The notes under the pieces were generated by a model that made no database searches, had not been told where the DNA came from, and saw nothing but the letters and a program-made list of their open reading frames with translations. Below are positions 561 through 17,205 of a stretch of DNA of 18,270 bases, piece by piece (position 1 is the stretch's first letter; each line of letters begins with the position of its first letter). The stretch is from an uncultured Actinomycetes bacterium (GTDB lineage: Bacteria > Actinomycetota > Actinomycetes > Mycobacteriales > Mycobacteriaceae). The stretch spans positions 1 through 18,270 of the forward strand of contig CAIWCQ010000379.1 of assembly GCA_903911165.1 (NCBI GenBank), in the 5' to 3' direction. Made by a program: the position numbers and the translations under genes.

Positions 561-620
561 ACTCCTTTCGGTATGTCGGCACTCCTTTCGGTATGTCGGC
601 ACTCCTTTCGGTATGTCGGG
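561..620 (-). repeat. 3 x 20-bp tandem repeat carrying the Shine-Dalgarno
   Basis: Three head-to-tail copies of a 20-bp unit (561-580, 581-600, 601-620), identical except for the last base of the third. On the minus strand each unit reads GCCGACATACCGAAAGGAGT, so each carries a purine-rich GAAAGGAG. The copy nearest the DUF1214-like gene sits at ribosome-binding distance from its GTG start. A degenerate fourth ACATACCG lies just beyond, around 627-634. The array therefore triplicates a ribosome-binding site and could also be a repeated operator. Confidence 0.95.
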
Positions 621-680
621 GCCAACGGTATGTGGTGACGAACCGTCGTCTTACGCTTTTCTGACCGAGGTCCGAAATCC

Positions 681-710
681 GTGACGGCCACCCCCGGGTG
701 CCCCTAGCCT
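681..710 (+). promoter_or_regulatory. Possible promoter for the mpt53-like/ccdA-like pair
   Basis: GTGACG (681-686) and TAGCCT (705-710, TANNNT form) are separated by 18 bp and would start transcription about 25 nt before the ATG at 744, which has a GAGAGG ribosome-binding site. The match is modest and the call is tentative. Confidence 0.3.
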
Positions 711-743
711 CGAACTACACGCTCGTCACTCGAGAGGATTCGC

Positions 744-1244
744 ATGAAGACACCGATCCAAGCCCTGATCAGGCCACTGGCCCTGGTACTGGCGGTGGTG
801 GGGTTGACGTTCGGCATCGCGCAACCGGCCCCGGCGGCCGCCGCTGATCTGAACTTCACCGGGACCACCCTGAGCGGCGCACCCTTCAACGGCGCGAGCC
901 TTCAGGGCAAACCCGCGGTGCTGTGGTTCTGGACTCCGTGGTGCCCGTTCTGCAATCAGGAGGCGCCGAACGTCAGCGCGGTGGCGGCAGCTAATCCGAA
1001 CGTGACCTTTGTCGGGGTGTCCACCCGGGCCGACGTCTCCGCCATGGCGAATTTCGCTTCGAAGTACAACTTGAACTTCACCAACCTCAATGACGCGGAC
1101 GGCTCGATCTGGGCGATGTTCAACGTGCCCTGGCAGCCCGCCTACGTTTTCCTGCGCCCGGACGGTTCGTCGACCTTCGTCAACAACCCGGTCTCAGCGA
1201 TGTCCCAGCAGGAACTGACTAACCGGGTGCAAGCGCTGACATAG
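744..1244 (+). CDS. mpt53: Mpt53-like secreted thioredoxin-fold disulfide oxidoreductase
   Basis: The 166-residue protein starts with a signal peptide (KTPIQALIRP, a hydrophobic core, then alanine-rich PAAAAA near residue 34), so it acts outside the membrane. The mature part is a thioredoxin fold with the WCPFC active site (Cys67, Cys70) and the cis-proline loop VPWQP (Pro132). The sequence, including LQGKPAVLWFWTPWCPFC and KYNLNFTNLNDADG, closely resembles M. tuberculosis Mpt53 (Rv2878c), an exported DsbE/DsbA-like protein involved in disulfide formation in secreted proteins. The ATG at 744 has GAGAGG upstream. The stop codon directly abuts the GTG of the ccdA-like gene, so the two are almost certainly co-transcribed and translationally coupled. 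Confidence 0.92.
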   Translation: MKTPIQALIRPLALVLAVVGLTFGIAQPAPAAAADLNFTGTTLSGAPFNGASLQGKPAVLWFWTPWCPFCNQEAPNVSAVAAANPNVTFVGVSTRADVSAMANFASKYNLNFTNLNDADGSIWAMFNVPWQPAYVFLRPDGSSTFVNNPVSAMSQQELTNRVQALT

Positions 1245-2087
1245 GTGGAACAGAACCTCGTCGCGCTGGCCTTCGTGGCCGGCATGGTCGCGGCGTTCAA
1301 CCCCTGCGGGTTCGCGATGCTGCCCGCCTATCTGACCCTGGTGATCGATCCGCAGAGCAGCGGGCAGCTCGCCGCGGTGGGACGGGCGTTGGCCGCGACC
1401 GCAGCCATGGCTCTCGGGTTCCTGGCTGTGTTCGGATCGTTCGGGCTGCTAACGGTGTCGGTGGCCTCGACGGTGCAGCAGTATCTGCCGTACGTGACAT
1501 TGGCGATCGGGGTCAGCCTCGTCGGCCTCGGGATATGGCTGTTGTCCGGCCGGGAACTGCGGGCTCCGAATCTGGCGGGCGGGCGCTGGGTGCCGTCATC
1601 GCGATTGGGGTCGATGTTCGGGTACGGCGTCGGCTACGCGATCGCGTCGCTGTCGTGCACGATCGGGCCGTTCCTGGCGGTCACCGGCAGCAGCCTGCGC
1701 AAGGGTTCGCCGGCCCAGGGCGTGCTGGTCTACCTGGCTTACGCGGCGGGGATCGCCCTGGTGGTCGGGGTGCTCGCGGTGGCCGTGGCGCTGGCGAGGT
1801 CCTCGTTGGTCGACCGGATGCGGACCGTGCTGCCCTACATCAACCGGATCAGCGGCCTGATCCTGGTGGTGGTGGGTCTGTATGTCGGCTACTACGGCTT
1901 CTACGAGATTCGGCTGTTCACCGCAAACGGCAGCGCAGACGATCCGGTGGTCGGTGCGGCCGGGCGACTTCAACGGGCGCTGGCGGGCTGGGTCTATACC
2001 CACGGCGCCTGGCCGTGGTTGCTGGTCCTGGGTGGGCTCATCGCGGCCGCCGCGGCGCTATGGGCACGACGGCGGATCCACCGGTAG
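1245..2087 (+). CDS. CcdA/DsbD-like membrane thiol-disulfide electron carrier
   Basis: This 280-residue polytopic membrane protein has about six to seven hydrophobic segments (roughly 5-30, 48-73, 80-101, 122-148, 157-183, 197-219, 253-273). The family signature NPCGFAMLPAYL places Cys21 in the first helix. A second cysteine, Cys138, in ASLSCTIGPFLAV forms the expected redox pair. CcdA-type proteins carry reducing equivalents from cytoplasmic thioredoxin across the membrane to an extracytoplasmic thioredoxin-like partner. The partner here is evidently the adjacent Mpt53-like protein, the same pairing as Rv2877c-Rv2878c in M. tuberculosis. The GTG start follows the previous TAG with no gap and no independent ribosome-binding site, indicating coupled translation. 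Confidence 0.9.
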   Translation: MEQNLVALAFVAGMVAAFNPCGFAMLPAYLTLVIDPQSSGQLAAVGRALAATAAMALGFLAVFGSFGLLTVSVASTVQQYLPYVTLAIGVSLVGLGIWLLSGRELRAPNLAGGRWVPSSRLGSMFGYGVGYAIASLSCTIGPFLAVTGSSLRKGSPAQGVLVYLAYAAGIALVVGVLAVAVALARSSLVDRMRTVLPYINRISGLILVVVGLYVGYYGFYEIRLFTANGSADDPVVGAAGRLQRALAGWVYTHGAWPWLLVLGGLIAAAAALWARRRIHR

Positions 2088-2099
2088 GCCGACTGCGGT

Positions 2100-2105: not shown

Positions 2106-2144
2106 CGAACTCCCACGCTGGGAAAACAGGTCGAGAGGAACGAG

Positions 2145-2435
2145 ATGAGACAGTCCACCCGCACCTGGGTTGCCGCTGCGGCGGCAGTTCTGGGTCTGAC
2201 GACGGTGCCGGCGGCGATCGTCACCATCTCAGGCAGCGGAGAGGCCCACGCCGACGTGTGCGCCAGCGCCGGCCGACGCGTCTCGGTCAGTGGTTGCGCC
2301 AACCTATCCGACGTGATGGCCCCCTACGTGGTGGAACCCGACGCCTACGCGCCACTGCCCCAGGACATCGCACCCAACGTGAACGCCTGCGTGGGCTACA
2401 ACGGCCGCTGGGTGAGCGCCAACAGCTGCGGGTAG
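2145..2435 (+). CDS. Small secreted protein with four cysteines, unknown function
   Basis: This is a 96-residue protein with a clear Sec signal peptide: a basic N-terminus (MRQSTR), an alanine/leucine core, and a probable cleavage after Ala-His-Ala (residues 34-36). The mature chain of about 60 residues has exactly four cysteines (39, 51, 82, 95) and ends in NSCG. I do not recognise a named family; it resembles the many short exported mycobacterial hypotheticals. A good ribosome-binding site (GAGAGGAACGAG) precedes the ATG. It lies 57 bp after the ccdA-like gene on the same strand, so an even-cysteine secreted protein sits next to an oxidative-folding pair. That it is a client of the pair is inference. 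Transcription ends at the hairpin at 2449-2476. Confidence 0.8.
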   Translation: MRQSTRTWVAAAAAVLGLTTVPAAIVTISGSGEAHADVCASAGRRVSVSGCANLSDVMAPYVVEPDAYAPLPQDIAPNVNACVGYNGRWVSANSCG

Positions 2436-2448
2436 GTCACCGACGACA

Positions 2449-2476
2449 AGATGCCCCGCCGCTCGGCGGGGCATCT
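2449..2476. terminator. Bidirectional intrinsic terminator hairpin
   Basis: A perfect 12-bp stem (2449-2460 with 2465-2476) closes a 4-nt GCTC loop. It begins 13 nt after the small secreted gene and ends 13 nt before the katG stop, so it serves both convergent transcripts. On the plus strand it is followed by CGTCTTT, a weak T tract. It is the only classical strong hairpin at any of the six convergent junctions in the window. Confidence 0.88.
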
Positions 2477-2489
2477 CGTCTTTGGGCTA

Positions 2490-4661
2490 CTACTTCTTGA
2501 CGTCGAACCGGTCGAGGTCCATCACCTTGGAGAATGCCGCGGCGAAGTCCCGGGCGAACTTCTCCTTCGCGTCGTCCTCGGCATAGACCTCGGCCACCGC
2601 GCGCAGTTGCGAGTTCGACCCGAAGATCAGGTCGACGCGGCTTCCGATCCACTTCTGCTTGCCCGTGGACCGATCCTTGCCCACGTAGGTTTCGTCGTCC
2701 TTCGAGGATGGTGACCACTCGGTGTCCATATCGAGCAGGTTCACAAAGTAGTCGTTCGTCAGCCGACCCGGCTTGTCGGTGAACACACCGAGCTTCGAGT
2801 CCTTGAAGTTGGCGCCGAGAACCCGAAGGCCACCCACCAGAACCGTCATCTCCGGCACGGTCAGCGTCAGCAGATTGGCCCGGTCGATCAGCATGTACTC
2901 GGCCGGCAGGGGGTTGCCCTTGCCGGCGAAGTTGCGGAAACCGTCGGACTTCGGCTCCAGGTACGCGAACGACTCGACATCAGTCATCTCCGGGCTGGCG
3001 TCACCGCGACCTGGGGTGAACGGCACCGCGATGTCGAAACCGGCATCCTTGGCTGCCTTCTCGACAGCCGCGACACCGCCAATAACCACGAGATCGGCGA
3101 ACGACACCTTGGTACCGGACGCCTTCTGGATCTCCTCGAGCTTGCGCACCACCTGGGCGAGCTCATCGGGTTCGTTCGATTCCCAGCCGGCCTGCGGCTG
3201 CAGGCGGATGCGGCCACCGTTGGCACCGCCGCGCTTATCGCTGTCGCGGTACGACGAGGCCGCCTTCCATGCGGTCGAAACCAGTTGGGGCACAGTCAGT
3301 CCCGACGCCAGGATCTGTTCCTTCAGTTTGGCGACATCATCAGCAGAGATCTTGCTCTGGCCGATGGGGATATTGTCCTGCCACAGCAGTGCTTCCTTGG
3401 GAACCAGCGGGCCCACATAACGGGCCACCGGGCCCATATCGCGGTGAATCAGCTTGAACCAGGCCCGGGCGAACGCGTCCTCGAGCTCCCTGGGATTGTC
3501 AAGCCAGCGGCGGGTGATCTTCTCGTAGATCGGATCCACCCGCATCGAGATATCCGTGGTCAGCATCGACGGATGGGTCCTGCCGGTACCGAAGGGTTCG
3601 GGCACCGAGTTCGCCCAGCCACCGTCCTTGGGCTTCCACTGATGGGCTCCGGTCGGACTCGCGGTCAGTTCCCATTCGTTGCCGTACAGGATTTCCAGAT
3701 AGCTGTTATCCCACTTGGTCGGGGTGTGCGTCCAGATGACCTCAAGGCCGCTGGTGACGGCGTCCTTGCCGACTCCGGTGCCGAAGTCACTCTTCCAGCC
3801 CAGGCCCTGCAACTCGATCGGGGCGTCTTCCGGATCCGGGCCAACGGTTCCGTCGCCGCCGGCGCCGTGGGTCTTGCCGAAGGTGTGACCACCAACGATC
3901 AGCGCTGCGGTCTCGACGTCATTCATCGCCATCCGTCCGAACGTCTCACGGATATCCATCGCGGCAGCCAATGGATCCGGAACACCCTCGGGGCCTTCGG
4001 GATTGACGTAGATCAAGCCCATCGTGGTGGCGCCCAGCGGGTTCTCCAAGACTCGCTGGCCGGTGTAACGGGCGTCGGTGCCCAACCAGGTGTCCTCGGA
4101 ACCCCAGTAGATGTCCTCATCGGGCTGCCAACGGTCTTGGCGGCCGAAGGCGAAGCCGAACGTCTTGAAGCCCATCGCGTCCATGGCGTGGTTACCGGCA
4201 AAGATCATCAGATCCGCCCACGACAGGCTCTTGCCGTACTTCTTCTTGACCGGCCACAACAACCGGCGCGCCTTGTCCAGGCTGGTGTTATCCGGCCAGC
4301 TGCCGATCGGCGCGAAGCGCTGCATACCGGAACCGGCGCCACCGCGGCCATCCTGCACCCGGTAAGTGCCCGCCGAGTGCCACGCCATCCGCACGAAGAA
4401 CGGACCGTAGTTGCCGTAGTCGGCAGGCCACCAATCCTGCGAATCGGTCATCACCGCTTCGACATCGGCCTTGAGTGCATCGACGTCAATGGTCGCGACC
4501 GCTGCGGCGTAATCGAAATCGGAATCCATCGGATTGTTCTCGGCGGGGTACTTCACCAGCATCTTGAGGTTGATCTGGTCGGGCCACCAATCGCGGTTGC
4601 TGCCCCCCTCTACCGGCGGCCTGATCCGCATTGGGCAGCCGCCCGCGTTGTCCTCAGCCAT
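2490..4661 (-). CDS. katG: Catalase-peroxidase KatG
   Basis: The 723-residue haem enzyme removes hydrogen peroxide by catalase and peroxidase reactions; the M. tuberculosis homologue (740 residues) also activates isoniazid. Distal residues Arg91, Trp94 and His95 are in [12 protein letters not shown]. The proximal haem ligand His259 is in [12 protein letters not shown], with Asp370 and Trp310 in their expected places. The Met-Tyr-Trp crosslink residues are present (Trp94, Tyr218, Met244). The serine corresponding to M. tuberculosis Ser315 is Ser304. The C-terminal duplicate domain is complete. An oddity is [10 protein letters not shown] (155-164) where M. tuberculosis has AGNCALESMG. The ATG at 4661 has a polypurine GAAAGGAAA upstream. 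It lies 61 bp after furA on the same strand, as in other mycobacteria. Confidence 0.98.
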
Positions 4662-4694
4662 TGAATTTCCTTTCAGGAGTGGGTGATTCGAGCC

Positions 4695-4714
4695 GCGATC
4701 ACGGTTGTGATCGC
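4695..4714 (-). other. Perfect hairpin between furA and katG
   Basis: GCGATCAC, a 4-nt loop and GTGATCGC form a perfect 8-bp stem between the furA stop (4723) and the katG ATG (4661). No T tract follows on the transcribed strand, so it is unlikely to be a terminator. In other mycobacteria the furA-katG transcript is known to be processed near the katG 5' end and stabilised by a polypurine stretch; the hairpin plus the GAAAGGAAA near 4669-4677 fits such an element. That role is inferred. Confidence 0.6.
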
Positions 4715-4722
4715 AGCGTAGG

Positions 4723-5142
4723 TCAGGTCGAACAATCTGGGCAGAGTCCCCAGTAGATGACCTCGGCTTCGTCGAGAACGAAACCGTGGTCGGACGCCGC
4801 TGTCAGACAGGGCGCGTCGCCAACGGCGCAGTCGACGTCCGCGATGGTTCCGCAGGACCGGCATACAACGTGGTGATGGTTGTCGCTGACCCTCGACTCG
4901 TAGCGGGCCACAGACCCCGAGGGCTGAATGCGCCGGAGCAGTCCCGCGTCGGTCAGTGCGGCCAGGACGTCGTAGACGGCCTGCCGCGACACGTCGGGTA
5001 GTCCGGCCCGAACCGCGCCGAAAATCGTGTCCGTGTCGGCATGGGGGTGGGCGTGCACCGCGCCGAGAACGGCCACGCGAGGCCGGGTCACCCGCAGGGC
5101 GGAGTTGCGTAGAAGCTCCGCATAATCCGACGTTAACGGCAC
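4723..5142 (-). CDS. furA: FurA, redox-sensing metal-dependent repressor
   Basis: The 139-residue Fur-family regulator has an N-terminal winged helix ([11 protein letters not shown] and the recognition region [14 protein letters not shown], 50-63) and a C-terminal metal/dimer domain. The latter has HHH (89-91), CRSC (94-97), a further Cys105 and CPDC (134-137). It closely matches mycobacterial FurA, which represses furA-katG and is relieved by oxidative stress. The frame is open further upstream, but GTG at 5142 was chosen because homologues start there ([11 protein letters not shown]) and a promoter -10 box ends exactly 7 nt before it. Translation of a leaderless mRNA is therefore likely. 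katG lies 61 bp downstream in the same operon. Confidence 0.95.
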
Positions 5143-5149
5143 GATTGAG

Positions 5150-5178
5150 ATCCTGCCGCGTTTTCTGGAATCAGTCAA
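5150..5178 (-). promoter_or_regulatory. furA-katG promoter, leaderless; likely FurA operator
   Basis: On the minus strand, TTGACT (5173-5178) and CAGGAT (5150-5155) are separated by exactly 17 bp. The -10 box ends 7 nt before the furA GTG, placing +1 on the start codon. The spacer is AT-richer than the surroundings and carries a small CTG-ATTC-CAG dyad (5166-5175). FurA autoregulation through this kind of promoter region is established for mycobacteria; the exact operator boundaries here are inferred. Confidence 0.7.
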
Positions 5179-5207
5179 GTGTGTGTCGGGCTCGTTTGGA
5201 CGATCGG

Positions 5208-5213
5208 TAAGGT
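5208..5213 (+). promoter_or_regulatory. -10 box of the MTHFR operon, leaderless
   Basis: TAAGGT (TANNNT) ends 8 nt before the GTG at 5222. There is no Shine-Dalgarno at proper spacing, and no clear -35. It is divergent from the furA promoter, the two start codons being 79 nt apart. Confidence 0.5.
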
Positions 5214-5221
5214 TGTTCCTT

Positions 5222-6115
5222 GTGTCTCTCTCTACGGTCGCTCTGGAAATGGTGGCGCCCAATACCGATCGCAGCCTGACCGAGCAGTTGGACGAGGCAC
5301 GCAAGGTTGCCCGGATCTCGACCGAGACCGGACTAGCCGGGCGGATCGGCCACGTGATGATTCCGGGGATGATCGATGAGGACGACGACCGCCCGGTGGA
5401 GATGAAACCCAAACTCGACGTCTTGGATTACTGGCAACTCATCGCGCCGGAACTTCCCGGCATCAAGGGTCTGTGCACCCAGGTCACCGCATTCTCCGAC
5501 GAGATTGCACTGCGTCGGCGAGTAACCGATCTGGTCGCTGCGGGTATGGAGGGCATCGCGTTCGTCGGCGTGCCGCGCACCCTGAACGACGGCGAAGGCG
5601 GCGGCGTCGCACCCACCGACGCATTGGCGATCTATCAAGATCTGGTGCCCAACCGCGGGGCGATTCTGATCCCGACCCGCGACGGCGAGGCGGGCCGCTT
5701 CGGGTTCAAATGCGCCCGTGGCGCGACCTACGGCATGACGCAGTTGCTGTACTCCGATGCCATCGTCGGATTCCTGGCGGACTTCGCCCGATCCAGCGAC
5801 CAGCGCCCCGAAATCCTGCTCTCCTTCGGCTTCGTGCCGAAGGTGGAAAGCCGCGTGGGACTGATCAATTGGCTGATCCAGGATGCCGGCAACGCCGCTG
5901 TCGCCGCCGAACAGGACTTCGTCACGACGCTGGCCGCCTCCGATCCGGTCGACAAGCGCCGGCTCACCGTCGATCTCTATAAGCGAGTGATCGACGGCGT
6001 CGCCGAGCTGGGGTTCCCACTCAGCATCCATTTCGAGGCGACCTACGGGTATTCCGCACCGGCCTTCGATACGTTTGCCGAAATGCTGGCCTACTGGTCG
6101 CCGCCGCGCGCGTGA
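5222..6115 (+). CDS. Mycobacterial-type methylenetetrahydrofolate reductase
   Basis: The 297-residue protein matches the atypical mycobacterial MTHFR family typified by Rv2172c (301 residues), including GLAGRIGHVMIPGM, GIKGLCTQVTAF, FVGVPRT, GATYGMTQLLYSD and FGFVPKVESRVGL. The reaction is NADH-dependent reduction of 5,10-methylene-THF to 5-methyl-THF, feeding methionine synthesis. The family is distinct in sequence from canonical flavin-dependent MetF. An earlier ATG at 5183 keeps the frame open, but GTG at 5222 fits homologue N-termini (SLSTVALEMVAPN versus TLNTIALELVPPN) and sits 8 nt after a -10 box. It is followed after 10 bp by the MenC-like gene, so the two form an operon divergent from furA. 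Confidence 0.88.
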   Translation: MSLSTVALEMVAPNTDRSLTEQLDEARKVARISTETGLAGRIGHVMIPGMIDEDDDRPVEMKPKLDVLDYWQLIAPELPGIKGLCTQVTAFSDEIALRRRVTDLVAAGMEGIAFVGVPRTLNDGEGGGVAPTDALAIYQDLVPNRGAILIPTRDGEAGRFGFKCARGATYGMTQLLYSDAIVGFLADFARSSDQRPEILLSFGFVPKVESRVGLINWLIQDAGNAAVAAEQDFVTTLAASDPVDKRRLTVDLYKRVIDGVAELGFPLSIHFEATYGYSAPAFDTFAEMLAYWSPPRA

Positions 6116-6132
6116 GGAACCGGGCGTGAGGA
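6111..6132 (+). repeat. Stop/start-spanning 14-bp duplication
   Basis: CGTGAGGA occurs at 6111-6118 and again at 6125-6132, a 14-bp period. The first copy holds the MTHFR stop (TGA 6113-6115) and the GAGGA ribosome-binding site for the next gene. The second copy supplies the GTG start (6126) of that gene. Outside the 8-bp core the two units are only partly alike. Confidence 0.65.
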
Positions 6133-7097
6133 CCTGGATTGACTTCGACGAAGCGCCGGTGTTCGAGATTCCCCTGATCGACGAGATCGGCGGACGTCGC
6201 GTCCATCAGGGCATGCTCATCGAGGGCCCGCAGGGGTGGGGGGAGTTCAGCGCGCCCCCCGATGTGGACGACGAGCGCGCGGGACGCTGGCTCACCGCAT
6301 CGGTCGAGGCAGGCACAGTCGGCTGGCCGGACCCGGTTCGGGGCCGGGTGCCGGTTGCGGTGACGGTACCGGCGGTGGATCCGGATCGAGCCCGGGAAAT
6401 CGTCGCCGCAGCCGGATGTCGGACCGCGTCGGTCCGGGTCGGCGATCCGGGCGGCACACTTGCCGGCGACATCGCCCGGGTGGCGGCGGTGCGTGAGGCA
6501 CTGGGACCCTCGGGGTCGATCCGCTGCGATGCCAACGGCAACTGGGATCTCGACGCTGCGGTCGCGGCGATCGCGGCGCTGGATCAAGCCGCCGGGGGAC
6601 TGGAGTTCATCGAACAGCCGTGCCGCACCCTCGCGGAGGTCTCGGCATTACGCAGGCGGGTGGATGTTCCGGTCGCCGTCGACCAGTCGATTCGGGACGC
6701 GCCCGATCCGCTGCGACTGCCACTGGCGTCCTCGGCAGATATCGCAGTGCTGACCGTCGCCGCCCTGGGCGGGGTCCGGCGCGCGCTGCGAGTCGCCGAG
6801 TCCTGCGCCCTGCCGTGCGTGGTGTCCGGCTCACTGGAGAGCAGTATCGGGACCGCCGGCGGCCTGGCACTGGCCGCCATCCTGCCCGACACCGGGTACG
6901 CGCACACGCTGGGAGTGGGGGTGCTCGGCGGCGATATCGTCAGCGCAGGCCGGGCCCTGATGCCCGTCGACGGCACCCTTCCGGTCTCACCCATGCCACC
7001 GGCACCCGATCCCGCCCGGCTGACGCAGTTCGCGGCCGACGACGCGACCGTTGCCCGGTGGCGTCACCGGCTCGCGTCCGTGCGGCGCTACACCTGA
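6126..7097 (+). CDS. MenC-like enolase-superfamily protein lacking both catalytic lysines
   Basis: The 323-residue protein has the fold layout of o-succinylbenzoate synthase (MenC; about 326 residues in M. tuberculosis): an N-terminal capping region with LIEGPQGWGEF, then a TIM-like barrel. The three metal-binding acids are kept: Asp135 in CDANGNW, Glu163 in FIEQPC and Asp186 in AVDQS. The lysines essential in MenC are not. The KxK motif is Ser102-Val-Arg104 (TASVRVGDPG), and the barrel Lys is Thr210 (AVLTVAALGG). Asp-Glu-Ser has become Asp-Gln-Ser. It is therefore a paralogue with altered or no lyase chemistry; a separate genuine menC elsewhere is expected. GTG at 6126 has GAGGA 8-9 nt upstream. 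It shares an operon with the MTHFR. Confidence 0.82.
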   Translation: MRTWIDFDEAPVFEIPLIDEIGGRRVHQGMLIEGPQGWGEFSAPPDVDDERAGRWLTASVEAGTVGWPDPVRGRVPVAVTVPAVDPDRAREIVAAAGCRTASVRVGDPGGTLAGDIARVAAVREALGPSGSIRCDANGNWDLDAAVAAIAALDQAAGGLEFIEQPCRTLAEVSALRRRVDVPVAVDQSIRDAPDPLRLPLASSADIAVLTVAALGGVRRALRVAESCALPCVVSGSLESSIGTAGGLALAAILPDTGYAHTLGVGVLGGDIVSAGRALMPVDGTLPVSPMPPAPDPARLTQFAADDATVARWRHRLASVRRYT

Positions 7098-7110
7098 GGA
7101 CCAGCAGCAC

Positions 7111-7178
7111 GTGACCGCCAGCGGCCTGTGACTACCAGCGGACCGTGACTACCAGCGGCCCGTGACCATCAGCGGCTG
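7111..7178. repeat. 4 x 17-bp degenerate tandem repeat at a convergent junction
   Basis: Four units begin at 7111, 7128, 7145 and 7162, with consensus GTGACTACCAGCGGCCC. They start 13 nt after the MenC-like stop and run through the stop of the small minus-strand membrane gene (TGA, 7169-7171). On the minus strand the copies at 7128 and 7145 each carry a TAG, so the stop region itself appears to have been duplicated. A 7-bp hairpin (7172-7178 with 7182-7188) overlaps the last copy. Confidence 0.88.
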
Positions 7179-7351
7179 CGCCAGCCGCCGATCGCGAGTC
7201 CAACGCCGATCACCGCAATGATCGGGCCCAGCACCGACCACGTGGTCGTGTTGCTCATCGGGCTGCCCTGCACCGCACCGAATCCCTGCAGGGTGAATAG
7301 CACCCCGAATAACGCCATCATTACGCCGAGCGCGCCAACCGTTTTCCGCAT
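7169..7351 (-). CDS. Small two-helix membrane protein, conserved actinobacterial type
   Basis: This 60-residue protein has two hydrophobic helices (about 4-22 and 38-56) joined by a short loop (QGSPMSNTTTWS) and ends in a basic WRSR. The motif GVLFTLQGFGAVQGSPM followed by GPIIAVIGVGLAIGGW recalls a widespread actinobacterial small integral membrane family of unknown function; this is recognition from memory. The ATG at 7351 was chosen over a TTG at 7390, which would only add a charged tail in front of the first helix. Its ribosome-binding site is weak. It is convergent with the MenC-like gene across the 17-bp repeats and divergent from the CitE-like gene. Confidence 0.7.
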   Translation of the reverse strand: MRKTVGALGVMMALFGVLFTLQGFGAVQGSPMSNTTTWSVLGPIIAVIGVGLAIGGWRSR

Positions 7352-7406
7352 GCTGGCGATCTTGCCTGATCGGGCGGGTTTGGCTATCAACGGCTGGCAG
7401 TGACAC

Positions 7407-7456: not shown

Positions 7457-7491
7457 CACATTTCGCCGCAGGGAAGGCACCAGGGCCAGGT

Positions 7492-10989: not shown

Positions 10990-11029
10990 ATGGGTGTGAT
11001 GCAAGCGGCAGAGGTGGGGACTCGGTCGA

Positions 11030-11038: not shown

Positions 11039-11045
11039 CGCCCTG

Positions 11046-12716
11046 ATGTCCGACATAGAAATCGCGCAGGCCGCGCTCAAGCGGCCCATCATCGACCTAG
11101 CGGAACGCCGGTACGGTATCCCCGCCGAGCACCTTGAGCCCTACGGCCACTTCAAGGCCAAGCTGTCTCTGGAGTACATCGAAAGCCTGCAGGACCGTGC
11201 CGATGGCGAACTCGTTTTGGTGACAGCCATCAGCCCAACGCCGGCCGGTGAAGGCAAGACCACCACCACCGTTGGGCTTGGCGATGCGCTGAATCGGTTG
11301 GGCAAACGCACCATCATCTGTCTGCGGGAGCCCTCGCTCGGGCCCTGCTTCGGCGTCAAGGGCGGCGCGGCCGGCGGCGGTTTTGCCCAGGTTGTCCCGA
11401 TGGAAGACATCAATCTGCACTTCACCGGCGACTTCCACGCCATCAGCGCAGCCCACAACCTGCTTGCCGCAATCATCGACAATCACATCAAGCACGGCAA
11501 CTCCCTGCACATCGACCCGCGTCGCGTCACCTGGAAGCGCGTGGTGGACATGAACGACCGCGCACTGCGTCACATCATCGTCGGGCTGGGCGGCGCCGCG
11601 AACGGCTACCCACGTGAAAGCGGTTTTGACATCACCGTGGCATCCGAGGTCATGGCCATTTTCTGTCTTGCCACCTCTATCACCGACCTCAAGACGCGAC
11701 TCGGCGAGATCGTGATCGGCTTGAACCGGCGGCGCGAACCGGTGCTGGCACGTGATTTGAAGGCCGATGGCGCAATGGCAGCCCTGTTGAAAGACGCCAT
11801 CAAACCCAACATCGTTCAGACGCTCGAGAACAATCTGGCCTTCGTCCACGGTGGCCCCTTCGCGAATATCGCGCACGGCTGCAACAGCGTTTCGGCCACC
11901 CGCGCGGCGCTGAAGCTCGCTGATTTCGTGATCACCGAGGCGGGATTCGGCGCCGACCTCGGCGCCGAGAAATTCATCGACATCAAATGCCGCAAAGCAG
12001 GCCTCAAGCCCCGCGCCGCCGTCCTGGTCGCCACCGCCCGGGCCCTGAAGTATCACGGCGGTGCGGCACTCGATGCCCTGAACCAGGAAGATCTCGGCGC
12101 CCTCGAACGTGGTCTGGTCAACCTTGAGCGGCACTATCAGAACATCACCACGCAGTACGGCCTGCCCGCCGTGGTGTGCATCAATCACTTCACCGCCGAT
12201 ACCCCGGCGGAACTAGCACTGATTGAAGCCAAGGTCGCCAGCCTCGGCGGGCGGGCAGTGGTGGCTCGACACTGGGCGCAGGGCGGTGCCGGCGCGGAGG
12301 CGTTGGCCGAAGCCGTGATTGCCGCGGTAGCGAACAATCAGGGTGAGCATCGTTACCTGTACCCCGATGACATGGCGCTGTGGGACAAAATCAAGGCGGT
12401 CGCCACCGGTATCTACGGTGCAGCCGACATCACCGCAAGCGCCAAAGTCCGCGCGCAGATTGATGAACTCAATGCCCGGTGGGGACATCTACCGGTGTGT
12501 ATCGCGAAAACTCAGATGTCGTTCTCCACCGACCCGCGCGCGCTGGGTGCACCCAGCGGCCACACGGTCGACCTCAACGAGGTCCGGCTGGCGGCGGGGG
12601 CCGGTTTCGTCGTGGTCATTGCCGGTGGTCTGATGACCATGCCGGGGCTGCCTAAGGTACCGGCCGCGGAGCACATCGACGTCGACGCCCACGGCAACAT
12701 CAGCGGCCTCTTCTGA
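11046..12716 (+). CDS. fhs: Formate-tetrahydrofolate ligase
   Basis: The 556-residue enzyme has the usual family length. It makes 10-formyl-THF from formate, THF and ATP. The ATP-binding loop [11 protein letters not shown] is at 65-75, followed by the highly conserved [23 protein letters not shown] region, [21 protein letters not shown] and [13 protein letters not shown]. The frame is open far upstream through the alcohol dehydrogenase gene, but ATG at 11046 matches homologue N-termini ([10 protein letters not shown]) and follows a -10 box by 7 nt. Codon third positions look less GC-rich than the neighbours, and the protein reads like proteobacterial Fhs. M. tuberculosis, as I recall, lacks fhs. 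Acquisition by transfer is plausible. With the MTHFR it links formate to folate one-carbon flow. Confidence 0.97.
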
Positions 12717-12735
12717 CGCCGCTCTTCTGACGCCG
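12708..12735. repeat. 2 x 14-bp perfect repeat over the fhs stop
   Basis: CTCTTCTGACGCCG is repeated exactly at 12708-12721 and 12722-12735. The first copy contains the last two codons of fhs and its TGA (12714-12716); the second reproduces that sequence in the short gap before the R2lox stop (12741). Confidence 0.9.
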
Positions 12736-12740
12736 CGGAG

Positions 12741-13697
12741 CTACCCGGTCAGCGTCAGCTGATCTTCGGTGTGGAACTGCTCCTCGAGGGTCTCCGGGGA
12801 GGCGTCGCGGTCGATCGTGAACAGGTCGGCTCCGCGGGCCGACTCGATGGCGCCGAGGCGGCGGGTGAGCTTGTCGGCGGCGTAGGCGGCCAGTTCGTCG
12901 GCATCGATACCAAACGGCGGGTCATCCTGGAACTTCTCGGTACCGGACGACACGCTGCCCACCGCCAGTCCCATCAGCTCGCCCATCCGGTCCTGAACCG
13001 CCTGCCAGTTCGCGTCGTCGGCGGCGACATGACGGCGGCAGGTGAAGGTGCCCCACGCCATATGGCGGCGCTCGTCGTCGCCGATGTGCTTGATGACCTT
13101 CTGCATGCCGGGCAGGATGCCCCGGCTGCTGCAGACCTTGTTCCAGCCGTAGTAGCCGGTCAGTGCCAGGCATCCCTCGACCACATGGTTGTAGGTGACC
13201 GAGGCGCGGATCTGGTTGACCGGGCCGGGGTCGAGTTGCAGTGCGTAGAGGCTCTCCGGTAGTTCGCGGGTGAAGATCTGCGACAGCGGCTCATTGGACT
13301 CGACGAACTCGTGTAGGTCCGACTTCACGCCTACCGCGTCGAACCACAGCCGGAACGCCAACGCGTGCTTGGCCTCCTCATAGACGAACTGGGTCAGGTA
13401 CATCTCGTCGGCGAAGCGGCCCTCGGCGGCCATTGCCGCCACGAACGGCTGCAGATCCTGCGTCACTGACTCCTCGCCGGCCAGGAACTGCGCGGCCAGC
13501 ATCGTGGTGTACTCGCGCTCGCGGTCGGTCATCGCCGCGAAGTCCGCCGCGTCCTGGCTGAAGTCGATGTCGGCCGGGTTCCAGTGCTTACCGGCTCCCT
13601 TGAGGAACAACCGCATCGGGAAGGATTCCTGGCTTAGCCCGCCGGCGCCGAGCGAGGCGTAGCCCGTCCGCTTGCCGTGTTCGATGGTGCGTGTCAT
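12741..13697 (-). CDS. R2-like ligand-binding oxidase (R2lox)
   Basis: The 318-residue ferritin-like protein is of the R2lox family (Rv0233 type), which carries a Mn/Fe cofactor and a bound fatty-acid-like ligand; it is not a ribonucleotide reductase subunit despite older NrdB labels. All six metal ligands are present: Glu75, Glu108, His111, Glu174, Glu209 and His212. The two residues that form the ether crosslink, Val78 and Tyr169, are also present; each equals the M. tuberculosis number plus 7. Characteristic blocks are GEESVTQDLQPF, EEAKH, ASVTYNHVVEG and GDDERRHMAWGTFTCRRHVA. ATG at 13697 (MTRTIEHGKR) follows a TAATAT box by 7 nt. The frame runs further upstream as non-homologous sequence. 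It is convergent with fhs and divergent from a small membrane-protein gene. The physiological substrate is unknown. Confidence 0.94.
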   Translation of the reverse strand: MTRTIEHGKRTGYASLGAGGLSQESFPMRLFLKGAGKHWNPADIDFSQDAADFAAMTDREREYTTMLAAQFLAGEESVTQDLQPFVAAMAAEGRFADEMYLTQFVYEEAKHALAFRLWFDAVGVKSDLHEFVESNEPLSQIFTRELPESLYALQLDPGPVNQIRASVTYNHVVEGCLALTGYYGWNKVCSSRGILPGMQKVIKHIGDDERRHMAWGTFTCRRHVAADDANWQAVQDRMGELMGLAVGSVSSGTEKFQDDPPFGIDADELAAYAADKLTRRLGAIESARGADLFTIDRDASPETLEEQFHTEDQLTLTG

Positions 13698-13704
13698 GGC
13701 GCCA

Positions 13705-13710
13705 ATATTA
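13705..13710 (-). promoter_or_regulatory. -10 box of the R2lox gene, leaderless
   Basis: TAATAT on the minus strand ends 7 nt before the R2lox ATG, putting +1 on the start codon. The -35 is not recognisable. Confidence 0.6.
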
Positions 13711-13745
13711 GGTGCGGTTTCGCGGACAGGCGGCCGGATCGGAAC

Positions 13746-13751
13746 TACAGT
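13746..13751 (+). promoter_or_regulatory. -10 box of the small membrane-protein gene
   Basis: TACAGT (TANNNT) ends 9 nt before the ATG at 13761, so the leader would be absent or only 2-3 nt. It is back to back with the R2lox -10, 35 bp away. Confidence 0.45.
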
Positions 13752-13760
13752 CGCAAAGCT

Positions 13761-14096
13761 ATGAGCACCCGGCCCACTCCCGTGCGACCCCGCGGCGAGC
13801 CGGCCAGTCTGCGTCGGCTCAGCCGGCAGTTCAGCACGGTGGGCGTCGACATCCCGGCGGCGCGGCTCAGAGAGATCGCCGGCGGGGCCGACGCCACCGA
13901 TTCCGAACGCCTCGATGTGGGCTTTGCTCTGCTGGCCACCGCAACCCTGGCCGAGGATCGGCACGCCAGGCGACATCGGACACGGCGGCGCTACCTGCAT
14001 TGGGTCGTCATAGCGGGCGCGCTGCTGGTGGCCCTGAACGTGTTGGCCGGGCTGGGGTTCGTGCTTTTTCAACTCATCGGGCAGGCGCACGCCTAG
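13761..14096 (+). CDS. Small basic protein with a C-terminal membrane anchor, unknown
   Basis: I do not recognise a named family for this 111-residue protein. The N-terminal half is hydrophilic and basic (MSTRPTPVRPRGEPASLRRLS). A middle amphipathic part (VDIPAARLREIAGGADATDSERLDVGFALLATATLAED) is followed by a very basic HARRHRTRRRY. A single transmembrane helix lies at about 81-105, and the chain ends in GQAHA. The positive-inside rule predicts a cytoplasmic N-terminal domain with a C-terminal tail anchor. ATG at 13761 was chosen because a -10 box stands just before it and the sequence upstream is the R2lox promoter region. The stop begins a six-copy repeat array leading to the convergent aminotransferase gene. 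Confidence 0.72.
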   Translation: MSTRPTPVRPRGEPASLRRLSRQFSTVGVDIPAARLREIAGGADATDSERLDVGFALLATATLAEDRHARRHRTRRRYLHWVVIAGALLVALNVLAGLGFVLFQLIGQAHA

Positions 14097-14184
14097 CCCG
14101 AATCCATCGGCCCGAATCCATCGGCCCGAATCCAGCTAGCCCGAATCCAGCTGGCCCGAATCCAGCTGGCCCGAATCCAGCTGC
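14097..14184. repeat. 6-copy 14/15-bp tandem array between convergent stops
   Basis: Two copies of CCCGAATCCATCGG (14097-14110, 14111-14124) are followed by four copies of the 15-bp variant CCCGAATCCAGCTGG (starting 14125, 14140, 14155, 14170; one reads CTAG). The array begins directly after the TAG of the small membrane-protein gene and ends 12 nt before the stop of the aminotransferase gene. CCAGCTGG is self-complementary, so neighbouring copies can pair as 8-bp stems with 7-nt loops. Confidence 0.93.
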
Positions 14185-14196
14185 TCAGCCCTACTG

Positions 14197-15579
14197 TCAG
14201 CCGACCACATGCTGATCGGCCACGTCGAGGGCAGCGTCCAGGATTGACAGCCCCTCGGCAGCCTCGGCGTCACTGACGTTGCACGGCGGGCACACGTGAA
14301 TGCGATTGAAGTTGGCGAACGGCAGCAACCCACCCGACTTGCACGCCGCCAATACCGCGTTCATCGCCGGACTGGACCCGCCGTAGGGTGCCAGCGGCTC
14401 CCGGGTGAGCGGATCAGAGACCATCTCCACCGCCCAGAACACGCCGAGCCCACGGACCTCGCCGACGCTGCGATGCCGCTTCGCCAACTCGCGCAGGCCC
14501 GGGCCGAGCACCTTATCGCCGATCCGGGCGGCATTGGTCACCATCGCCTCGTCTTCCATCGCGGTGATGGTCGCCACCGCGGCGGCCGTCGCCAGGGGGT
14601 GCCCGGAGTAGGTCAATCCGCCCGGATAAACCCGGTCGGCGAAGGTCGAGTAGATGGCATCGCTGATCGCGACGCCACCCAACGGAACGTAACCGGAGGT
14701 GACGCCTTTGGCGAAGGTCATCAGATCCGGAACGACATCGAAATGGTCAATACCGAACCACTTTCCGGTGCGGCCGAAGCCCGCCATCACCTCGTCGGCG
14801 ATGAAAACGATGCCGTAGCGGTTGCAGATATCGCGCACCCCGGCCATATAGCCGGGCGGTGGGATCATGATGCCCGCGGTGCCTGGCACCGATTCCAGGA
14901 TCAGCGCCGCGAAGGACGCCGGGCCCTCGTGGGCGATGAGGCGTTCGAGGTAGTCCAGCGCACGCTCGGATTCCTGCTCTTCGTTGTCGGCATAAAACGA
15001 CGAGCGGTAGAGGAATGGTCCATTGAAGTGCACGACGCCACTGCTGGCGTAATCGTTGGGGTAGCGCCGCGGGTCACCGGTGAGGTTGACCGCGGTGTCG
15101 GTCCCGCCGTGATAGGAGCGGTAGCGCGCGAGCACCTTGTAGCGGCCGGTGTGTAGGCGCGCCATTCGCACCGCGTGTTCTACCGCGTCGGCTCCGCCGG
15201 TGGTGAAGAACACTCGGTTCAAATCACCGGGGGTGCGTTCGGAAATCAACCGGGCAGCCTCCGAGCGAGCAGCGTTGGCGTGCTGCGGGGCGATCGTGCA
15301 CAACTTGGCAGCCTGCTCGGCAATGGCCGCAATGACTTTCGGATGCTGGTGGCCGATGTTGGTGAAAACCAGCTGCGACGAGAAATCGAGCAACCGATTC
15401 CCCTCGCCGTCCCAGACGTAGGAGCCGTCCGCGGCGACGATGGTCATGGGCTTGATCTGTGCCTGGGCCGACCACGAGTGGAAGACGTGCCGGCGGTCAA
15501 GTTCGTAGGCGCGCTTCCCCTCGGCAATCGCGGTCTGCAGATCGCGTCCGCCGGGCAGGACCGTCTCGGTAGTGGTCAT
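14197..15579 (-). CDS. Class III PLP-dependent aminotransferase (Rv3329 type)
   Basis: The 460-residue fold-type I enzyme closely resembles M. tuberculosis Rv3329. Visible motifs: the substrate/cofactor region HVFHSWSAQAQ, GGADAVE (128-134) for phosphate binding, YHGG (156-159), the catalytic Asp262 in IADEVMAGFGRTG, and the Schiff-base Lys291 in LMTFAKGVTSGYVPLGG. The family uses omega-amino donors such as diamines, beta-alanine or GABA, with a 2-oxo acid acceptor; the exact substrate here is unknown. The open frame extends upstream through a 21-bp repeat, but ATG at 15579 (MTTTETVLPGG) fits homologues and lies 8 nt after TAAACT. It is convergent with the small membrane-protein gene. Confidence 0.92.
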   Translation of the reverse strand: MTTTETVLPGGRDLQTAIAEGKRAYELDRRHVFHSWSAQAQIKPMTIVAADGSYVWDGEGNRLLDFSSQLVFTNIGHQHPKVIAAIAEQAAKLCTIAPQHANAARSEAARLISERTPGDLNRVFFTTGGADAVEHAVRMARLHTGRYKVLARYRSYHGGTDTAVNLTGDPRRYPNDYASSGVVHFNGPFLYRSSFYADNEEQESERALDYLERLIAHEGPASFAALILESVPGTAGIMIPPPGYMAGVRDICNRYGIVFIADEVMAGFGRTGKWFGIDHFDVVPDLMTFAKGVTSGYVPLGGVAISDAIYSTFADRVYPGGLTYSGHPLATAAAVATITAMEDEAMVTNAARIGDKVLGPGLRELAKRHRSVGEVRGLGVFWAVEMVSDPLTREPLAPYGGSSPAMNAVLAACKSGGLLPFANFNRIHVCPPCNVSDAEAAEGLSILDAALDVADQHVVG

Positions 15580-15587
15580 GAGTGCGA

Positions 15588-15593
15588 AGTTTA
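15588..15593 (-). promoter_or_regulatory. -10 box of the aminotransferase gene, leaderless
   Basis: TAAACT on the minus strand ends 8 nt before the ATG at 15579. No Shine-Dalgarno lies in between. Confidence 0.5.
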
Positions 15594-15661
15594 GCGCCGG
15601 GCAGCGGGAACGCGACCGCCCGGACCATGGCGACCGTTCGGCTACGTTTCGCCCCGGCTTG

Positions 15662-15703
15662 GACACTGTTGGATCACGGTTCGACACTGTTGGATCACGG
15701 TTC
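15662..15703. repeat. 2 x 21-bp perfect tandem repeat
   Basis: GACACTGTTGGATCACGGTTC followed by four further matching bases occurs at 15662-15682 and 15683-15703, both copies identical. It lies about 70 bp upstream of the aminotransferase -10 box. It is in frame with an upstream extension of the aminotransferase frame but is more likely non-coding. Confidence 0.92.
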
Positions 15704-15883
15704 GACAAACGGTCCTGCACCGATCGGATCAGCGGTGGTAGCACGCCGCGGAGTGTTGTAGAAGTGATAGTAGTGACTGATGTGATCTGAGCGCGGCCCT
15801 CGAGTGCGCGCTCAATTCAGCGAAGAGCGGGCTCGACGGACGGGCATCAGCCCGGCCGCGACCCGGAGAGGGGATGGAGACAC

Positions 15884-16372
15884 ATGAAGCGCATTGGAGC
15901 CGTTGTTCTCGGCCTTGTGATGTTGGTTCTGGCGCCCGCCGTGGTGCCGGTTCCGGCGGCTGCGGCCCCGGTATCCCGGGATCAGGCCGTCAGCTACGTG
16001 ATTGCCCGCGGCCTGGCGCAGCGCGGCGTGCCGTACTCGTGGGCAGGCGGCAATATCGACGGACCGAGCCTGGGCACCGACACCGGGGCGTCGATCGTCG
16101 GGTTCGACTCCTCGGGTCTGATCCAGTACGTCTACGCCGGCGTCGGCGCCAAACTGCCGCGTTCCTCGGGTGCGATGTACAACGTGGGTCAACGGGTGAC
16201 GCCGGCCCAGGCGCTGCCCGCCGACCTGATCTTCTACGGACCCGAGGGCGGCCAGAGCGTCACGATGTTCCTCGGCAATAGCGAGATGTTGGAGGTGACC
16301 GACACCGGCGTAGCGGTCTCGCCGGTTCGCACCACCGATATGGCGCCCTACCTGGTTCGTGTCATCGCCTGA
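15884..16372 (+). CDS. RipD-like secreted NlpC/P60 protein without catalytic Cys/His
   Basis: The 162-residue protein has a Sec signal peptide (basic MKR, hydrophobic to about 22, cleavage likely near AAAA-APVS). The rest is a single NlpC/P60 domain, the fold of cell-wall endopeptidases that cut D-Glu to mDAP bonds in peptidoglycan. The two key catalytic residues are replaced. The normal FDCSGL is FDSSGL (Ser76), and the His of HVGIYLGN is Ser125 in SVTMFLGN. M. tuberculosis RipD is a described NlpC/P60 protein with a non-catalytic, peptidoglycan-binding domain, and DTGASIVGFD recalls it. This protein is shorter than RipD, lacking a C-terminal extension. A GGAG ribosome-binding site lies 4 nt before the ATG. 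Confidence 0.87.
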   Translation: MKRIGAVVLGLVMLVLAPAVVPVPAAAAPVSRDQAVSYVIARGLAQRGVPYSWAGGNIDGPSLGTDTGASIVGFDSSGLIQYVYAGVGAKLPRSSGAMYNVGQRVTPAQALPADLIFYGPEGGQSVTMFLGNSEMLEVTDTGVAVSPVRTTDMAPYLVRVIA

Positions 16373-16386
16373 CGCTCAAGCCGGAG

Positions 16387-17166
16387 TCAACACCGCCACA
16401 ACGACTCCTGGGCAACGCTGGCCACCAGCGTGCCCAGGTTGTCGTGGATGGACCCGAAAGCAAGTCCGCGTGCGTCGCTGTGGCTGATCGCGACGGCGTC
16501 GTAGCAGTGCCACTGTCGGGGGTCGACTCGTCGGTGCAACCACAGGGCGTGGTCAAGGCTTGCTGCGCCGCCAGGTCCGGGTTCCTGCTCGCCGGGCGGG
16601 CGTGCGGTGGACACCATGCCTAAATCCGAGACGAAGGTCAACGCGCAGGCCGCAAGGACAGGGTCATCCTCAATCGGCTCGCGGGAGCGGAACCAGAACG
16701 GCTGTTGCGGCCAGGTGGTGTCGGCGTCGGCCGCTACTCGCATTTCGTAGTAGTCGGCCCAACGCTCCGGGGGAGTGACGATGGTTGTGGCGTCGGTGAG
16801 CGGTAGCCGGGGAATCACCGGCCGCTGCCAGTCGAGAGTTTTTTCCGGGGAGTGGAATGAGGCCAGCATCTCAAAGATCGGCATGCCGTCCTGGCGTGCG
16901 GTGACCCGGCGGGTGGCGAATGAGCGACCATCCCGGGTTGTCTCAACGACGTACTCGACGTCCACCCCGACCCGGCCACCCCTGATGAAGTAGGCATGCA
17001 GCGACTGCGGTAATCGCGCACTGTCGACGGTCGCCGCAGCGGCGGACAGCGCCTGTGCGGCAATCAGTCCGCCGAACAAACGCGGACCCGCGCCCAGCGC
17101 CGTGGAGGTCCGGAATACCGTGCCATCGCCGTCAAGGCGGACCAGGTCCGCAATCCAGCTCGACAT
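16387..17166 (-). CDS. TesB-like acyl-CoA thioesterase (double hot-dog)
   Basis: The 259-residue protein has the type II acyl-CoA thioesterase layout. The first hot-dog domain has RLFGGLIAAQAL (29-40), SLHAYFIRGG (55-64) and FATRRVTARQDGMPIFEMLASFH (83-105). The second domain has SDLGM (180-184), SLDHALWLHR (203-212) and a C-terminal GTLVASVAQESLWR. The Asp205 and Gln253 of the Asp-Thr-Gln catalytic network are present; at the Thr position a serine (228 or 230) may substitute. Such enzymes hydrolyse fatty acyl-CoA to free acid and CoA; chain-length preference is unknown. The ATG at 17166 fits homologues, but GGAGG is only 3 nt away. Its stop is 14 bp from the stop of the convergent NlpC/P60-like gene. 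Confidence 0.87.
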   Translation of the reverse strand: MSSWIADLVRLDGDGTVFRTSTALGAGPRLFGGLIAAQALSAAAATVDSARLPQSLHAYFIRGGRVGVDVEYVVETTRDGRSFATRRVTARQDGMPIFEMLASFHSPEKTLDWQRPVIPRLPLTDATTIVTPPERWADYYEMRVAADADTTWPQQPFWFRSREPIEDDPVLAACALTFVSDLGMVSTARPPGEQEPGPGGAASLDHALWLHRRVDPRQWHCYDAVAISHSDARGLAFGSIHDNLGTLVASVAQESLWRC

Positions 17167-17167
17167 A

Positions 17168-17205
17168 CCCCTCCAGGCCCCTCAGTCATCGCGGCCCCTC
17201 CAGGC
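17168..17205 (-). repeat. Duplicated ribosome-binding-site block before tesB-like gene
   Basis: GCCTGGAGGGG (minus strand) occurs at 17168-17178 and 17195-17205, 27 bp apart. The proximal copy is nearly fused to the thioesterase ATG (17166). The distal copy is well placed (5 nt) before another ATG at 17189 in a different frame, which opens a short overlapping reading frame of about 40 codons. Whether that frame is translated is unknown. Confidence 0.7.

Follow-up and report, generated by a model that had tools for sequence, protein, structure and literature searches.

Short tandem duplications at gene ends in an uncultured mycobacterial lineage, a possible product of Ku/LigD end joining

What process would place a different short tandem repeat at one gene boundary after another? 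The question is raised by an 18,270-nucleotide stretch of DNA from an uncultured Actinomycetes bacterium of the family Mycobacteriaceae (GenBank assembly GCA_903911165.1, contig CAIWCQ010000379.1), which was analysed over its whole length and is referred to here as the window. The window is one contig (C379) of an assembly of 3.14 Mb in 524 contigs that is 97.6% complete, and its 19 genes, including small open reading frames (ORFs) without a family match at 7169 and 13761, are separated by 18 boundaries. A sequence-only reading had placed direct repeats at eight of these boundaries, or at about every second one. By using Tandem Repeats Finder with a minimum score of 30, six of the eight were recovered as tandem arrays (head-to-tail copies of one unit), all of them outside genes or at gene edges, and the repeats at 6111 and 17168 were not called. 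The proposed frequency was too high: arrays were found at 6 of 18 boundaries in the window and, in a 366-kb sample of the same genome, in 32 of the 200 gaps that are 8 bp or longer (16%). The arrays are real, some are demonstrably young, and they are general in the sampled part of the genome. They are read here as short tandem duplications that arise at a raised, lineage-specific rate, and their most likely source, at a confidence just short of even, is the joining of staggered breaks by Ku and LigD.

Chance was ruled out as the source of the arrays by shuffle comparisons. Across the 18 window gaps (with 20-bp flanks), 14 matches of 11 bp were counted at offsets of 8-30 against 0.01 in 100 dinucleotide shuffles, and 12 matches of 8 bp at offsets of 8-25 against 0.71, with the proviso that a single array may be counted repeatedly. 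The wider sample of the window genome consisted of 366 kb of N-free sequence, about an eighth of the genome, and held 42 arrays that lay outside genes or overlapped a gene edge (12.5 per 10 kb intergenic), while shuffled gaps averaged 0.2 arrays. In this eighth, boundary counts therefore lie far above those of shuffled intergenic DNA, the comparison on which the sequence-only reading had staked its claim beforehand. A further 32 arrays lay within genes (0.96 per 10 kb coding), which makes the density 13-fold higher outside genes, and the period was divisible by three in 27 of these 32. The earlier statement that no repeat lies inside a gene thus holds for the window at a score of 50 but fails genome-wide.

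Genes in the samples were predicted by using a purpose-written, simple dicodon caller, whose starts are imprecise and which misses small genes. On the window it missed 7169-7351 and 13761-14096 and made the minus-strand gene at 12741 too long, so that two of the arrays described below (R3 and R6) enter the statistics as same-strand gaps. N-free pieces were used for the density, gap-class, stop-side and L003-recurrence statistics, and earlier results on masked sequence held up. The size spectrum was computed with masked N stretches read as A, as were the stricter L003 pairing, the recurrence in other relatives, the C/G counts and the copy-number comparison.

Relatives were retrieved by way of one window protein, and the analysis kept to the best 80 of 261 loci; these belong mainly to Mycobacterium and Mycolicibacterium, and the nearest are metagenome assemblies. 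Among them, the closest sister locus was L002 (90% DNA identity across window positions 4195-9230), and L246, from the same genome as L002, was 91-92% identical across window positions 12620-16373. Two further loci, L003 and L010, are syntenic with most of the window at an identity of mostly 80-83%. Against the 12.5 arrays per 10 kb intergenic in the window genome, N-free samples gave 11.9 in the L002 genome (13 arrays) and 6.2 in the L003 genome (32 arrays). The corresponding values were 4.1 for twelve other near-relative loci (6 arrays), 3.6 for the L007 genome (9 arrays), 3.3 for G002 (5 arrays), 1.8 for M. sediminis (7 arrays), 1.6 for Mycobacterium sp. M26 (2 arrays) and 1.5 for 21 further Mycolicibacterium-group loci (7 arrays); L010 had no array in 17 gaps (20.9 kb examined). 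From this series, the phenomenon is a quantitative, lineage-limited excess of a process that is also present at a low level elsewhere.

The duplications have a characteristic size. Outside genes in the window, L002 and L003 genomes, the period of exact duplications was 13-18 bp in 36 of 50 cases and 9-12 bp in 8 of 50, with 15 bp commonest (15 cases) and 9 cases at 14 bp; one array may yield several entries in this spectrum. Inside genes, 15 bp was again the commonest longer period (18 cases), with 8 cases at 12 bp and 31, partly due to chance, at 9 bp. Duplication counts in control genes peaked at 9-10 bp and were low beyond, and genic duplications of 15-16 bp numbered 3 in 783 kb of controls versus 11 in 365 kb of the window genome. 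Clean two-copy duplications outside genes also carried short homology at their ends, with a mean of 2.40 bp against 0.80 in simulated random duplications (P < 0.0001; n = 15, restricted to values ≤ 8, three values of 9 or more being excluded); with all 18 duplications the mean was 3.83 against 0.80 (P = 0.0014). The size mode of 14-15 bp together with short end homology, as looked for in duplications made by non-homologous end joining (NHEJ), was found outside genes and was weak inside them.

The earlier suggestion of a process confined to boundaries was not upheld, given that in-gene arrays exist, are mostly in frame and have the 15-bp mode too; selection accordingly explains much of the boundary pattern. 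Mutation acts across the whole genome and selection filters its products, with an additional bias towards the ends of genes. This bias was measured in the combined window, L002 and L003 samples. Of 26 arrays in same-strand gaps that left more than 40 bp to spare, 11 began within 15 bp past the upstream stop, where 4.5 were expected (P = 0.002), and no excess was found near the downstream start (5 versus 4.5 expected). Short convergent gaps (ancestral length ≤ 60 bp) were the densest class, with arrays in 16 of 79, compared with 17 of 225 short same-strand gaps (P = 0.003) and 1 of 93 short convergent gaps in control genomes (P = 3e-5). The proposed link to the 3' ends of genes is borne out by both results.

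Comparison of the window arrays with their counterparts in relatives gave single-copy states for some of them. Array R1 (559-619, minus strand) consists of a 20-bp unit in 3.0 copies in the 5' region of a minus-strand gene whose likely start is the GTG at 551-553. As read from the sequence, every unit contains AAAGGAG on the minus strand, so that a Shine-Dalgarno-like stretch is present three times and the proximal copy keeps it in place for the gene. Exactly one copy of the unit was found in L010, against three in the window, and the unit was absent from L003. The R1 flanks (250 bp on each side, ~309-869) are 94-96% identical to L010 versus 83% in the wider alignment, for which local recombination or strong conservation are candidate explanations. 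Array R7 (15662-15707, no strand assigned) has a 21-bp unit in 2.2 copies in the divergent gap between an aminotransferase gene and an NlpC/P60 gene. Its unit is single-copy in L246, L010 and L248, and L246 is exactly 21 bp shorter; there, the unit begins with GACA and is followed by GACA, which gives 4 bp of end homology. A single R7 unit corresponding to 15662-15690 (like GACACCGTTGG-TCACGGTT) was also seen in several relatives (e.g., L255 and L261), where it lies upstream of NlpC/P60, and may be a binding site that is doubled in the window.

Two arrays on the plus strand differ in copy number from the closest sister. R3 (7100-7176; 17-bp unit, 4.5 diverged copies) begins 3 bp past the stop of an enolase-superfamily gene and extends to the end of the minus-strand ORF 7169-7351, for which no family match was found; the L002 locus carries a 17-bp array of 2.4 copies, and no array was found at this spot in L003. 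R4 (8408-8465; 15-bp unit, 3.9 copies) fills the convergent gap between an HpcH/HpaI-family gene (stop at 8413-8415) and a GMC oxidoreductase gene, and the same array has 5.9 copies in L002. Arrays of different units occupy the R4 gap in L003, L005, L014 and L020, and none was found there in L004, L010, L013 or L015. The L014 array duplicates 19 bp that are present as a single copy, with two substitutions, in L013. Within the window genome itself, contigs C250 and C305 overlap (92% identity over 298 bp) and carry one array in 5.1 versus 4.1 copies, a difference of one 15-bp copy; most simply, these are two strains of one locus, although such strain comparisons were possible in few cases only. 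Copy number therefore differs among close relatives (R3 and R4 versus L002, and the overlapping contigs), and a single-copy stretch was found in relatives for R1 (L010), R7 (L246 and L010) and the L014 duplication (L013).

The two remaining arrays have less simple histories. R5 (12708-12736, plus strand; 14-bp unit, 2.1 copies) lies in a convergent gap and contains the stop codon of a formate-tetrahydrofolate ligase gene; L246 has no repeat at this site and a gap of similar length (21 versus 24), so that R5 is not a clean insertion. R6 (14096-14183, plus strand; 14/15-bp unit, 6.0 copies) starts at the stop codon of ORF 13761-14096, which had no family match, and fills the gap up to the end of a class-III aminotransferase gene. 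It is not present in L246, L010 or L248, no recognisable single copy was found in relatives, and L003 has its own 28-bp array (2.5 copies) in this gap. Mostly unrelated units, single-copy states at R1 and R7 and different arrays in one gap across relatives together support the recurrent local process that had been proposed from the window.

The two boundary repeats that were not called are of another kind. At 6111-6132 there is merely an 8-bp match at a 14-bp offset (CGTGAGGA), the region is equal in length in L002, L003 and L010, and with 0.71 such matches in shuffled gaps one is expected about once per window. At 17168-17205 an 11-bp block occurs twice with 16 bp between the copies and is therefore not a tandem array. 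This spaced pair was not present in L010; given 0.01 matches of this length in shuffles it is unlikely to be due to chance, and it may be what is left of an older duplication.

The units are mostly unrelated, as the sequence-only reading had stated in setting them apart from a single dispersed family such as mycobacterial interspersed repetitive units (MIRU). Only 7 of 74 array units matched elsewhere in the window-genome sample, and these included a locus that two contigs share and a 30-bp element that is palindromic. A single dispersed family was rejected on this count. The palindromic element occurs at L140:3763, L157:469 and L120:10753 of that sample; at two of these places it is tandem and sits between convergent genes. 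It may be a dispersed repeat resembling a terminator, and in this differ from the other arrays. The presence of several copies per array and the variation in unit length speak against the footprint of a mobile element, for which no dedicated search was made. The Gordonia loci L049, L074 and L080 also look rich in arrays (L049 has 10 arrays in 20.9 kb, 4 of them outside genes) and may form a separate array-rich group. Near 6500-6660, L052, L054, L060, L068, L070 and L079 (M. peregrinum, setense, senegalense and septicum loci) have a 34-bp array in 2.8-4.9 copies at the same place which, judged by position alone, may be shared and older.

Arrays recur in the same gaps of two lineages. Among 34 gaps common to the window genome and L003, arrays were present in both genomes in 6, in the window genome only in 2, in L003 only in 1 and in neither in 25 (P = 0.00014), and the association held when arrays were shuffled within gap-length thirds (P = 0.00045). 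A stricter pairing gave 4, 3, 0 and 19, respectively (P = 0.002). The units in gaps that bear arrays in both genomes differ, and some property of the gap, be it constraint or break-proneness, carries over between the lineages. The window supplies 4 of the 8 window-genome arrays in this comparison, which needs more data, and in one of the six shared gaps (7097-7491) the arrays lie at different places in a long gap. Comparison with L010 gave 12 gaps with 0 arrays in both and 4 in the window genome only; the L002 loci gave 8 gaps, 2 with arrays in both (shared arrays) and 3 in the window genome only; L007 gave 7 gaps, 0 with arrays in both and 1 in L007 only; and 8 gaps in controls held no arrays. 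An all-against-all comparison of gaps added little.

This recurrence could reflect nothing but spacers that are free of promoters or other constraint, with mutation being uniform, and would then fit either source of duplication discussed below. Convergent gaps need no promoter, and copies that keep a stop codon or a Shine-Dalgarno sequence would be tolerated. On the other side, long convergent gaps should share this freedom, and only 1 of 21 carried an array (0.24 arrays per kb; the short gaps had 5.8 per kb), although by gap the difference was not significant (P = 0.11); the persistence of the L003 recurrence within gap-length thirds also speaks against it. We regard this explanation as a realistic possibility that falls clearly short of even.

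The sequence-only reading had named slippage or end joining at transcription ends as possible sources. End joining fits better, on the grounds of the unit-size mode, the end homology and a change in LigD, and slippage is still viable. End joining by Ku and LigD is accordingly taken as the leading cause, with the balance of belief about level and slippage as its main rival. Under the proposed process, short tandem duplications, typically of ~15 bp (13-18 bp), would arise at a raised rate within and between genes alike. At a staggered break, the 3' single-stranded ends would pair over a few matching bases, LigD polymerase would copy the remaining overhangs, and ligation would leave the overhang sequence in tandem with homology at its ends. 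The LigD phosphoesterase (PE) domain processes 3' ends, which makes its loss a candidate for the raised rate, since a LigD without it could keep overhangs long. Selection would then purge frame-breaking copies from genes, so that survivors would pile up in gaps, and would be densest beside stop codons, where a copied stop (or, upstream, a copied Shine-Dalgarno sequence) would leave a working copy in place. Arrays would later gain or lose copies and decay.

Parts of this process have been described in other systems. In mouse cells, small tandem duplications are reported as the main product at 3'-protruding breaks, loss of Ku80 lowers them about twofold, and break-induced tandem duplications are reportedly perturbed by a 3' exonuclease (PMC5730883, PMC8355091). 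The mycobacterial NHEJ polymerase domain is reported to pair 3' overhangs via 4 bp of microhomology and to extend across the break (PMC3898472). The PE domain of LigD is described as a 3'-end phosphoesterase and ribonuclease (PMC8656161), and a survey of ~6,000 genomes is reported to class LigD with ligase (LIG) and polymerase (POL) domains alone as non-conventional NHEJ (PMC7719229).

The repair genes of the window genome and its relatives were searched for these components. Ku was found in 24 of 26 genomes, the window genome included, and had no match in G049 (L010) or G053 (L014). The PE domain was found in 17 of 22 genomes, among them all genomes of the twelve near-relative loci above, and was not found in G000 (the window genome), G041 (L002), G042 (L003), G043 (L004) or G049 (L010). 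On contig C270 of the window genome, a ligase domain (1690-2223) and a polymerase domain (2317-3078) lie 93 bp apart in a single 626-aa frame, with Ku nearby on the opposite strand (3534-4070), so that Ku, LigD polymerase and ligase are all present. The L003 genome has the same layout (630-aa frame, domains 108 bp apart), and in the L005 genome the two domains lie 546 bp apart in a 773-aa frame with the PE domain between them. In the L010 genome, two open stretches (279 and 63 aa) share the polymerase match and leave profile positions 128-204 uncovered, for which decay and assembly error are candidates, and no ligase-domain match was found. With regard to dependence on Ku and LigD, the L010 locus, with no Ku match and a fragmented LigD polymerase, had arrays in 0 of 17 gaps, and L014, with no Ku match, had one duplication. 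We infer, from few lineages, both that the duplications are caused by NHEJ and that their rate rose through loss of the PE domain. A stronger version is doubtful: that loss of the PE domain in the clade, with Ku, polymerase and ligase kept, made end joining a steady writer of ~15-bp duplications that renews intergenic DNA, chiefly at gene ends, and that a sister which lost NHEJ stopped.

Several observations weigh against end joining as the source, or against the part given to the PE domain. Three of the five genomes without the domain are cut or fragmentary at the LigD locus (G041 and G043 are cut or partial there), and a diverged PE domain could be missed by the search. Relatives with a full LigD (L005 and L020) carry arrays in the R4 gap, and L014, which has LigD and no Ku match, has one duplication there; loss of the domain is therefore not required. 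The absence of arrays from 17 gaps in L010 is merely suggestive (binomial P ~0.06 at a 15% rate), and the L004 genome lacks the domain yet has no array in its 3.5 kb. The link to LigD draws on one domain loss and one apparent NHEJ loss, both within one clade. Y-family polymerases number 2 in the window genome versus 4-5 in four large-genome mycolicibacteria. End homology is weak inside genes (mean 1.27, n = 11, P = 0.09), and intermediate values could stem from worn third copies. Recurrence against the other near relatives was not significant (32 pairs; 4 with arrays in both, 14 in the window genome only, 1 in the other only and 13 in neither; P = 0.35). In the literature, the PE domain is described, in the part of the source considered here, as removing 3' ribonucleotides and phosphates and not as trimming long DNA overhangs (PMC8656161), and the part considered of a study of M. 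smegmatis under oxidative stress gives the Ku/LigD-linked insertions as T or CG and leaves duplications unmentioned (PMC8068969).

Replication slippage between short chance repeats would act everywhere and would require only a lineage with higher slippage or weaker selection on spacer growth, LigD being irrelevant. In its favour, it too predicts a few bp of end homology, the copy numbers of 4-6 and the variation by complete units are those expected of slippage, a milder form is present in relatives with full LigD, and the set of Y-family polymerases is reduced in the clade. Slippage does not readily give the size mode of 14-15 bp outside genes with few 9-12-bp units, where control genes peak at 9-10 bp. 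NucS (over the cut-off) and the large subunit of exonuclease VII were each found in 20 of 22 genomes, the window genome included, which counts against slippage and led to the rejection of their loss as a cause. Fewer Y-family polymerases were likewise rejected as the sole explanation, as the L010 genome also has 2 and yet shows no arrays in 20.9 kb. General decay of the genome is opposed by its coding density of 0.91. On this evidence, slippage has perhaps a third of the weight of belief.

It is improbable that selection maintains the arrays as spacers or termination elements at the 3' ends of genes (e.g., a Rho-binding site or a buffer between convergent genes). The stop-side bias, the enrichment in short convergent gaps and the different arrays in the same gaps of the window and L003 genomes would agree with such an element. 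A Rho-dependent termination site is a C-rich, G-poor transcript with spaced YC contacts, and no clear excess of C over G was found (C over G in 7 and G over C in 7 of 18 convergent units; 22 versus 12 of 39 same-strand units on the transcript strand). Few units are shared, many orthologous gaps have no array, and arrays are also present in divergent gaps and in genes. The suggestion that copies of boundary signals are selected consequently finds little support, with no clear C/G strand bias and few shared units. An assembly artefact of fragmented, partly metagenomic contigs is highly improbable: the window assembly is in 524 contigs, L002 and L003 are metagenome assemblies and two overlapping contigs differ in copy number, but the diverged-copy arrays R3 and R4 are independently present in L002, other assemblies have clean single-copy states, and the period-three filter inside genes would not come from assembly error.

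The clade concerned consists of small-genome mycobacteria known mainly from metagenomes. To our knowledge, the origin of bacterial intergenic DNA and the natural mutations left by bacterial NHEJ are poorly understood, and no literature on tandem-duplication arrays at bacterial gene ends was found among the papers listed, as judged by titles and abstract openings. If the link to end joining is true, fresh tandem duplications of 14-18 bp would be an end-joining footprint that could be tallied in thousands of genomes and compared with LigD architecture, and a bacterial counterpart of the duplication signature of animal and plant end joining that is readable from genomes alone. Even if that link fails, it is unusual for one class of duplication, of a set unit size, to rise several-fold in a limited set of lineages and to strike the same gaps of two lineages that differ in sequence there.

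Among known systems, mycobacterial variable-number tandem repeats (VNTRs) and minisatellites are likewise tandem arrays in gaps with variable copy number. Their units mostly measure 50-100 bp, whereas those found here are mostly of 14-21 bp, in 42 arrays, largely unrelated to one another, that lie outside genes within roughly one eighth of the genome. MIRU form one dispersed family at gene boundaries and can hold stop and start signals. The present arrays resemble them in position and in these signals and differ in that their units are mostly unrelated. Eukaryotic end-joining duplications, as reported for mouse, human and plants (PMC5730883, PMC8355091), are alike in their short tandem copies with short or no end homology, in a size set by the protruding stretch and in Ku-dependent joining, as in the reading preferred here. 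They differ in the enzymes, one study reporting fill-in by Pol alpha-primase; here the candidates are bacterial Ku and a POL-LIG LigD, and the link is correlative. The two-domain LigD of Bacillus subtilis is also reported to be without a PE domain and to work with Ku, in the order LIG-POL (PMC8656161). In the window genome POL precedes LIG, and this arrangement looks like the loss of the middle domain from the POL-PE-LIG of its relatives.

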